Below are positions 58,267 through 58,766 of a stretch of DNA of 64,000 bases, piece after piece. The notes beneath the pieces were generated by a model. It had not been told where the DNA came from. It saw nothing but the letters and a program-made list of their open reading frames with translations, and did not search any database. Origin of the DNA: Clostridia bacterium. GTDB lineage: Bacteria > Bacillota > Clostridia > Oscillospirales > Acutalibacteraceae. The number at the start of each line of letters is the position of its first letter. Positions within the stretch are counted from its first letter, which is position 1. Location of the stretch: contig JAFTVI010000013.1 in the NCBI GenBank assembly GCA_017465825.1, positions 1 through 64,000 of the forward strand. Direction: 5' to 3'. A program made the translations under genes and the position numbers.

Positions 58267-58766
58267 TTATTTTACAATTGCAAGGAAATCTGCAAGGAGA
58301 TTAAAGAATTGTTTGATTTTACAAATAATATCCTGAATAAAGCTTAGATGCTCTTTATTGCAGATTTCACAAAGCTCTTTTGCTTCTGCAGAATTGTCAG
58401 CACCGGATGTTGATTGCTCAATCACAACTGTTGTATCTTCTTCTGTTGAAGATTCTTCCTCACGCAAACGAAGAACAAGATGAAGTGTTGATTCTTTCTG
58501 AATATTGTAATCTTAAAGAGTTTTGCCCTCTTCAAGCTGTTTGCCTGCAAAAATCAATCTCTGCTGAGCAGGAGCAATCCCCTCTTTCTCCTGAATTTTT
58601 GCCTTTATTGCATCAATAGAATCGTTAGGTTCAACCTCAAGAGTGATAGTCTTACCTGTAAATGTTTTTACAAAGATCTGCATAGCAGAAGCAGATACAG
58701 TCATTACAATCACTGATACCAATACCAACACCAAAGATATTGCTCTTTTTATAATTTTTTTGACAT
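58267..58766 (-). pseudogene. Secreted ubiquitin-like protein gene, disrupted
   Basis: ATG at 58766 with AAAGGGTGAT upstream reads MSKK and then shifts frame in a run of seven A. With eight A it would continue IIKRAISLVLVLVSVIVMTV SASA, a signal peptide, directly into the ubiquitin fold starting MQIFVKTFTGKTITLEVEP. The ubiquitin part matches human ubiquitin at 62 of the first 74 positions; Lys 6, 11, 27, 29, 33, 48 and 63, plus I44, H68 and V70, are kept. Residue 57 (Ser in human) is a TAA stop (58513-58515). After it, still in frame: DYNIQKESTLHLVLRLR, then EE in place of GG, a Ser/Thr/Glu linker and the tail CEICNKEHLSFIQDIICKI + KQFFNLLADFLAIVK. Bacteroides fragilis secretes a ubiquitin homologue that interferes with host E1. 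Confidence 0.85.

Follow-up and report, generated by a model that had tools for sequence, protein, structure and literature searches.

The window, by which we mean the whole 64,000-nucleotide stretch that was analysed, carries on its minus strand a cluster that reads, in order, a TetR-type regulator, a ubiquitin gene, a gene for a 159-residue protein and a gene for a leucine-rich-repeat (LRR) protein. The features of the cluster are as follows.

59533..59561, minus strand: promoter-like sequence preceding the regulator gene (TTGACA and TATTAT, 17 bases apart), a consensus match only
58789..59469, minus strand: TetR-family regulator, 226 residues from a TTG, directly upstream of the ubiquitin gene (PF00440 TetR_N, E 2.2e-7)
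58267..58766, minus strand: exported-type ubiquitin gene, broken (start out of frame; TAA inside the ubiquitin)
58684..58766, minus strand: codes for the signal peptide, whose last residues ...SASA directly adjoin ubiquitin Met1; the frame is broken near the start
58462..58683, minus strand: ubiquitin domain, residues 1-74 (PF00240, E 9.6e-30; 62/74 as in human ubiquitin)
58513..58515, minus strand: in-frame TAA at ubiquitin codon 57, read from the sequence
58267..58383, minus strand: C-terminal tail C-x2-C-...-H-...-C plus hydrophobic/amphipathic helix (E 1.8e-16 against tail alignment A2, of which it is itself a member)
57756..58235, minus strand: 159-residue protein with a hydrophobic N-terminus, between the ubiquitin and LRR genes, of no family (Pfam, E 0.01)
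56476..57687, minus strand: exported-type BspA leucine-rich-repeat protein, 403 residues, with the same C-terminal tail (PF13306 LRR_5, E 3.6e-67)
56479..56595, minus strand: the shared tail again, closing the LRR protein (it belongs to alignment A2 and matches it at E 1.0e-15)

The 159-residue protein had no Pfam match at E 0.01 and no homologue at E 1e-5 among the examined loci of other genomes. Two alpha-L-arabinofuranosidase genes, at 53494-56220 and 59910-61388, flank the ubiquitin/LRR cluster.

The ubiquitin domain was recognised by profile search. PF00240 matched G000:C5:58462-58677 on the minus strand (G000 being the genome of the window) over positions 1-72 of 72, with one TAA within, and the score was 103.5 bits against a curated cut-off of 25.4, despite the broken copy. 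The piece before the stop matched on its own (2.8e-21), none of 14 control genomes gave a match, and a profile search of the genome's contigs returned no second one. With the stop scored as a mismatch, 62 of 74 residues are identical to those of human ubiquitin. The changes are L8F, S20N, T22S, E24D, N25A, V26I, D32E, P37A, D39A, D52E, R54K and the stop at 57; the seven lysines are all retained, as are I44, H68 and V70, and the C-terminal pair is EE. The original prediction, made from the letters alone, had read, across two lesions, a signal peptide joined to a ubiquitin domain and, behind it, a linker and Cys-rich tail, with this same identity to human ubiquitin, the lysines and the I44/H68/V70 surface kept, Phe for L8 and EE for GG. 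All of this was confirmed by PF00240 and by reading of the frames.

As assembled, the gene is interrupted twice. The ATG at 58766-58764 is not in the ubiquitin frame; in that frame, past the upstream stop (58789-58791), the first ATG, GTG or TTG is a TTG at 58734, within the hydrophobic stretch of the signal peptide. The second lesion is the TAA at codon 57. The genome comprises 37 contigs and is rated 87% complete, and the lesions may be either real or assembly errors. Since the copy is broken, ubiquitin function may be lost in this genome.

The domain had been described as eukaryotic in type rather than related to ThiS/MoaD, and the searches support this view: at E 0.01 Pfam gave no ThiS but four families of ubiquitin type, and the terminus is EE. 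The six flanking proteins (TetR, LRR, DUF6171, the two arabinofuranosidases and one without family) do not form a thiamin or molybdopterin context, and a Pfam scan of these six found no E1-, E2- or E3-type enzyme. Behind EE the protein continues as linker and tail, and it therefore lacks the free C-terminal Gly-Gly that marks a protein modifier.

Intact copies were found in related gut genomes, as the original prediction had proposed to look for. A genome of the same genus (G002) carries an intact relative of 155 residues (L026, 9123-9590, minus strand) with the junction SASA|MQIF and the Cys tail, and this locus is a 100% match to RGIG6514, a sheep-rectum metagenome genome (L043). PF00240 matched in 2 of 11 genomes of the genus, the window's and G002, and in 20 of 349 sampled genomes of the family (19 over cut-off). 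Matches became sparse beyond the family, with 5 of 394 genomes in the order sample and 5 of 398 in the phylum sample (the window's own genome counted in each); in the latter, G877 (E 2.9e-30) was the only strong match besides the window's own.

The predicted structure of the intact relative (L043) had block pLDDT values of 79-89 over the ubiquitin domain, followed by a disordered linker and a C-terminal helix at 135-154; the whole model was modest (mean pLDDT 72, pTM 0.46). Its top PDB match was ubiquitin itself (4mdk_E, rmsd 1.0 over 75 columns), so that the relative is predicted to have a ubiquitin fold.

A related TetR gene lies directly upstream of such a ubiquitin gene in eight genomes, the window's included. 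In the other seven (G327/RGIG6358, G232/RGIG1832, SIG577, RGIG4510, RGIG4695, G093 and G259) the distance is at most about 210 bases, the regulator of RGIG4695 being cut by a contig end. The original prediction would have fallen if the segment were a chimera whose flanks do not join it in independent genomes; with the regulator-ubiquitin junction present in seven other genomes, that objection fails when tested on the relatives. The promoter-region stretch AAAATATTGACAG is common to the upstream regions of the same regulator at loci L031 and L047, and the stretch GAAAATATTGACA to the window and L125. We looked for a palindromic operator common to the regulator genes and saw none.

Within the family, homologues of the regulator (E 1e-15 or better) gave 24 matches in 19 of 349 genomes. 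Judged by eye, the next gene downstream encodes a ubiquitin in 4 cases (the broken one of the window counted), another signal-peptide-type protein in 14, a membrane-anchored protein in 3 and neither in 3. Altogether 21 of the 24, again with the window's broken gene, precede an exported-type or membrane-anchored gene. The regulator mostly precedes exported-type genes, so that a regulated surface cassette of an existing kind seems to carry ubiquitin as one of its cargoes. Of the 20 family genomes that PF00240 matched, only 5 showed the link to the regulator, and in G002 the ubiquitin gene does not adjoin it. Both G001 and G002 have the same regulator ahead of exported-type genes without ubiquitin; in G001 (L125) a tail of the same type follows.

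The C-terminal tail recurs on the neighbours. It is built as C-x2-C followed by a His, a third Cys and a hydrophobic, partly amphipathic helix, and it also ends the ubiquitin proteins of the relatives. The tails of the LRR protein and of the ubiquitin gene are 47% identical over the tail. Downstream of the ubiquitin gene at L031, L033 and L047 come one or two exported-type proteins with the same tail, which makes, with the window, four loci with such same-tail surface genes. The genome of the window has tail matches with E below 1e-10 at four places, two of them in the window's cluster. The two others are same-tail proteins that each lie near a contig start (G000:C9:1794-1880 and G000:C16:1674-1763; L129 and L130). 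At E 1e-4 the tail was found in 4 of 150 family genomes, the window's own included, and a wider variant of the layout occurs in two family proteins (L169, L170). A protein search with a single tail returned seven clusters of 144-145 residues, all PF00240 and all built as signal, ubiquitin and tail; with the LRR tail as query, nothing but the window's own protein came up. No family was assigned to the tail when tail-bearing proteins were scanned against Pfam and NCBIfam. The window tail reads LCEICNKEHLSFIQDIICKIKQFFNLLADFLAIVK and is not that of an LPxTG sortase substrate, for which an LPxTG-like motif, a transmembrane segment and a basic end would be expected. We suggest that it may hold proteins at the envelope.

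How far does this arrangement extend among bacteria? A genomic scan with the intact relative as query gave 217 loci, of which 80 were kept. All 80 have a ubiquitin ORF, and in 71 a signal-peptide-like stretch ends at ubiquitin residue 1, a share that is biased upward because the query itself had a signal peptide. By record title the 71 fall into seven phyla: Bacillota 39, Pseudomonadota 17, Verrucomicrobiota 8, Bacteroidota 3, Cyanobacteriota 2, Planctomycetota 1 and Fibrobacterota 1; many of them are metagenome genomes whose labels may err. The PF00240 searches, which were not steered by a signal peptide, showed the junction in 18 of 29 matches over cut-off, own excluded and with 5 matches that were too divergent for the script counted as lacking it. 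A simple heuristic found the junction in 86 of 99 genes, with Ala at residue -1 in 85; the 99 genes are 106 ORFs after merging of 7 genes doubled as short and long loci (91 of 106 before merging), and signal peptides were judged by eye and by this heuristic. The 13 genes without a signal-peptide-like stretch were excluded from the conservation count; of these, L062 seems to have a true one, and others, such as L111, L099 and L095, look eukaryotic or without an exported start.

Cultured strains carry the junction as well, among them Saccharibacillus sacchari DSM 19268, Dyella sp. OK004, Pseudohaliea rubra DSM 19751, Pseudovibrio denitrificans JCM 12308, Rhodoferax lacus IMCC26218 and Ohessyouella blattaphilus PAL227. 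Across the seven named phyla, these strains included, the exported ubiquitins are mostly fused to surface-type parts, which by eye are sortase-like ends, dockerin-like ends, autotransporter-like barrels and repeats. LPxTG-like ends were seen, by eye, on the exported ubiquitins of L053, L055 and L068. Also by eye, L061 and L067, both in Clostridiales records, combine signal peptide, ubiquitin and a dockerin-like repeat and could dock on a cellulosome, and in L059, L060, L062, L070, L097 and L101-L103, several of them proteobacterial records, ubiquitin heads an autotransporter-like barrel protein. A ubiquitin with a surface tail had been predicted for a Firmicute; an exported-type ubiquitin with a tail is indeed encoded there, but it is not limited to one Firmicute.

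A free terminal GG occurs in one of the 86 signal-peptide genes, L081 of Dyella sp. OK004. In L063, L075, L091 and L105 the GG is kept inside a longer protein, where processing might expose it. The Dyella gene (L081 8001-8267, from contig NZ_FOZI01000002.1) consists of a signal-peptide-like stretch and a ubiquitin that is 73/74 as in human and ends exactly at GG; it looks like an exported-type, conjugation-competent ubiquitin. Two further Dyella genes, L089 (Dyella acidiphila 7MK23) and L110 (Dyella sp. ASV24), end at the ubiquitin without GG, a layout like that of BfUbb, the exported ubiquitin of Bacteroides fragilis; all three Dyella genes are tail-less, with nothing behind the ubiquitin.

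Phage searches gave no match and plasmid searches gave three matching records. Plasmid pRUMAL01 of Ruminococcus albus 7 carries a ubiquitin gene (L133, 7926-8666) whose flanking genes are, by eye, of exported type with a similar C-terminal part and no ubiquitin, as if a ubiquitin head had been added to one member of a gene set. Another locus (L016, L023, L025 / L041, about 8.9-10.0 kb; G102:C22:30899-31909) has three tandem small ubiquitin-like proteins. They are preceded by double-glycine-type leaders (ELELVIGG) and resemble precursors of bacteriocins, although the ORFs listed nearby did not show a C39-type exporter. Lastly, two records, named Nitrospinota and Cyanobium, encode a tetra-ubiquitin (L111) and a protein like a ubiquitin protease (L099); both are probably eukaryotic contamination of those assemblies.

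The clostridial copies share a residue signature, N20 S22 D24 A25 I26 E32 E52 K54, which was defined from the clade itself. At least seven of the eight residues are present in 19 bacterial genes, and all eight in the window. Units taken as eukaryotic had at most three in 170 of 171 cases and five in one; this reference came from the best 120 of 7964 matches obtained when the intact relative was searched against 5.8 billion proteins, and some of it is unnamed metagenome protein. We rejected the same search as a guide to bacteria, eukaryotic-type polyubiquitins having swamped the matches listed. Among 21 clostridial domains (210 pairs), which include the window and were mostly picked from the same clade, the median pN was 0.114 and the median pS 0.74, with a ratio of 0.145. 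The clostridial ubiquitin domain is under purifying selection, and its synonymous sites are near saturation (pS > 0.5 in 195 of 210 pairs). A tree of 141 domains over 72 columns, from which rows below 50/74 identity were omitted and in which the eukaryotes were thinned to 61 of 171 units, was poorly resolved (5 of 138 branches starred). It unites 20 signature rows with two changes and a fork support of 83, and the other bacteria are mixed among eukaryotes, which suggests several separate captures of ubiquitin. A recent acquisition from a eukaryote, as originally proposed, is not supported by these data: the clade shares its signature and its synonymous sites are nearly saturated, which points to a module that has long lived in bacteria. 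We conclude that it is an old resident of gut Clostridia and has probably been exchanged among them, with probably several captures elsewhere.

We then compared conservation across the surface, with residues classed as core, I44 patch and other surface. In 36 diverged lineages the core was conserved at 0.90, the I44 patch at 0.76 and the other surface at 0.77 (I44 versus surface, p 0.58). Within the signature clade the I44 face stood at 0.93 and the other surface at 0.90 (p 0.37). Special conservation of the I44 face, which we had expected, was thus seen in neither set, and the classic eukaryotic binding face shows no sign of being favoured. Two sets of residues, both chosen post hoc after the alignment had been viewed, did differ in the 26 signature-clade domains: residues 8, 9, 36, 42 and 71-74 were conserved at 0.67 and the remaining surface at 0.95 (p 0.0001), and residues 45-65 at 0.98 against 0.87 (p 0.0003). 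The first comparison, post hoc as it is, suggests that the conjugation side is relaxed in the window's clade. In the same 26 domains 21 surface positions are invariant. F4, H68 and E64 are invariant, V70 is conserved at 0.92, and R42 and R72, two E1-contact positions, at 0.85 and 0.54.

The gene order, the junction at Met1, the shared tail, the lost GG and the purifying selection are features of the sequences themselves; export, tethering, regulation and binding are what we infer. We put a probability of about 0.45 on the reading that the window's gene and its relatives encode a non-conjugable ubiquitin, predicted to be exported and likely tethered at the envelope by its tail, which is made from a regulator-preceded cassette and acts as a displayed binding ligand rather than as a protein tag. 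Signal peptidase would release a mature protein that begins at ubiquitin residue 1, and the tail would keep the ubiquitin and the neighbouring adhesin-like proteins in one place. The TetR-type regulator would switch the cassette, and the ubiquitin head may bind to a partner on adjacent cells. Since bacteria whose names point to habitats other than the gut have the junction too, that partner would more likely be on gut microbes or protists than on host tissue.

Three other functions have to be weighed against a displayed ligand. BfUbb has a signal peptide, a mature form that starts at Met1 and no C-terminal glycines, and it antagonises B. fragilis strains (PMC5705921, PMC3352274). Since this nearest tested protein is antagonistic, a weapon that is exported, perhaps clipped off its tail, and inhibits related bacteria is a serious rival, although in our estimate an unlikely one. 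The junction and the lost GG are the same as in BfUbb, the three Dyella genes share a tail-less layout, and the patchy presence (2 of 11 genomes of the genus) fits a competition trait. However, BfUbb is a soluble protein of 76 residues, whereas the head in the window's clade stays joined to linkers, tails or sorting-type ends, and neither a clip site nor an immunity gene was identified at the examined loci in an inspection that was not systematic. A small, very stable folding or spacer module at the N-terminus, with no specific partner, is likewise a serious rival that we consider improbable. It would account for a core (0.90) better kept than the surface (0.77), for an I44 patch that does not stand out and for the joining of ubiquitin to very different proteins. 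The surface of a spacer should drift more than we observed, with 21 invariant surface positions in the clade despite near-saturated synonymous sites and with residues 45-65, a post hoc set, kept at 0.98 versus 0.87 (p 0.0003).

Mimicry directed at a ubiquitin pathway of eukaryotes, or at one of extracellular ubiquitin, whether in rumen protists or in the animal host, for instance as a decoy for ubiquitin-binding proteins or for a receptor, is the less favoured reading, given the bacterial range and the patch test, and we think it quite doubtful. The sequence is eukaryotic in type, with F4, H68 and E64 invariant and V70 nearly so in the clade, and extracellular ubiquitin has reported, though disputed, receptor effects through CXCR4 (review PMC10892293). 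Against this stand the variable E1-contact positions (R42 and R72), the nearly universal absence of a free GG and an I44 patch that is not favoured. Moreover, several junction-bearing genera live in water, in soil or on plants. That the ubiquitin could be eukaryotic DNA of host, feed or protist joined onto a bacterial contig is very improbable. The window's assembly is a multi-contig draft and some ubiquitin records do look eukaryotic (L111, L099), but the relatives have a bacterial signal peptide and a tail in frame, the regulator junction is found in eight genomes, the clade has its own residue signature, and the Met1 junction recurs in unrelated assemblies and cultured strains, including the annotated pRUMAL01 of Ruminococcus albus 7. 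At the level of the relatives an artefact is already refuted.

The displayed-ligand reading can be widened, more tentatively, to the other phyla. Ubiquitin would have been captured repeatedly from eukaryotes and used as a display head exposed at residue 1 by signal peptidase and held outside by varied anchors (Cys tail, sortase signal, dockerin, autotransporter-like barrel), its conjugation side decaying and the rest being kept; in gut Clostridia it would have become a resident, regulator-led contact ligand that marks or grips cells.

The usual view of ubiquitin is that of a tag used inside eukaryotic cells. The records from seven named phyla show it as an exported-type and mostly non-conjugable head that can be reused; in gut Clostridia it has long been resident and is under purifying selection. 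This makes it a tractable question what ubiquitin binds outside cells, with cultured carriers such as Ruminococcus albus 7, Saccharibacillus and Dyella at hand. It also bears on the extracellular ubiquitin reported in animals, and the ubiquitin in gut or rumen samples could be partly bacterial.

A search of mainly open-licence literature brought up papers on BfUbb, effectors and conjugation systems; among the matches listed we found no exported ubiquitin from Clostridia or other Firmicutes, and the available part of one review mentions neither B. fragilis, Firmicutes nor signal peptides (PMC11354881). The proteins described here resemble BfUbb in that the signal peptide sets the mature start at Met1, the sequence is eukaryotic in type and the glycines are lost. 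The junction of that type is present in the intact relative and out of frame in the window. The layout differs, as the original prediction had also stated: BfUbb is a soluble single domain, whereas ubiquitin here heads a longer protein with a linker and a Cys/helix tail, in a regulator-led cassette. Plant-parasitic nematodes secrete ubiquitin extension proteins whose extension is reported to be cleaved off in the plant (PMC5705921). These share with our proteins a signal peptide, ubiquitin and a C-terminal extension, but they are eukaryotic and cleaved, whereas ours are bacterial and end in an envelope-type tail.

The tail compares with sortase (LPxTG) tails in that it recurs at the C-terminus of several exported proteins of one genome; it differs in being a C-x2-C-...-H-...-C motif plus helix, without LPxTG and without a Pfam or NCBIfam family in the scans. 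The bacterial ubiquitin-like conjugation systems (Bil and the CBASS-linked ones) are intracellular and come with E1/E2-type enzymes. They have the ubiquitin fold in common with the present proteins, which in contrast carry an export signal and no free GG, with no such enzyme among the six flanking proteins. The annotated 'ubiquitin family protein' of pRUMAL01 in Ruminococcus albus 7 (WP_013483628.1) differs in its C-terminal part, which by eye is like that of its non-ubiquitin neighbours, in having no Cys tail and in matching 0 of the 8 signature residues; but it likewise consists of a signal-peptide-like stretch, Met1, ubiquitin and a further exported part.
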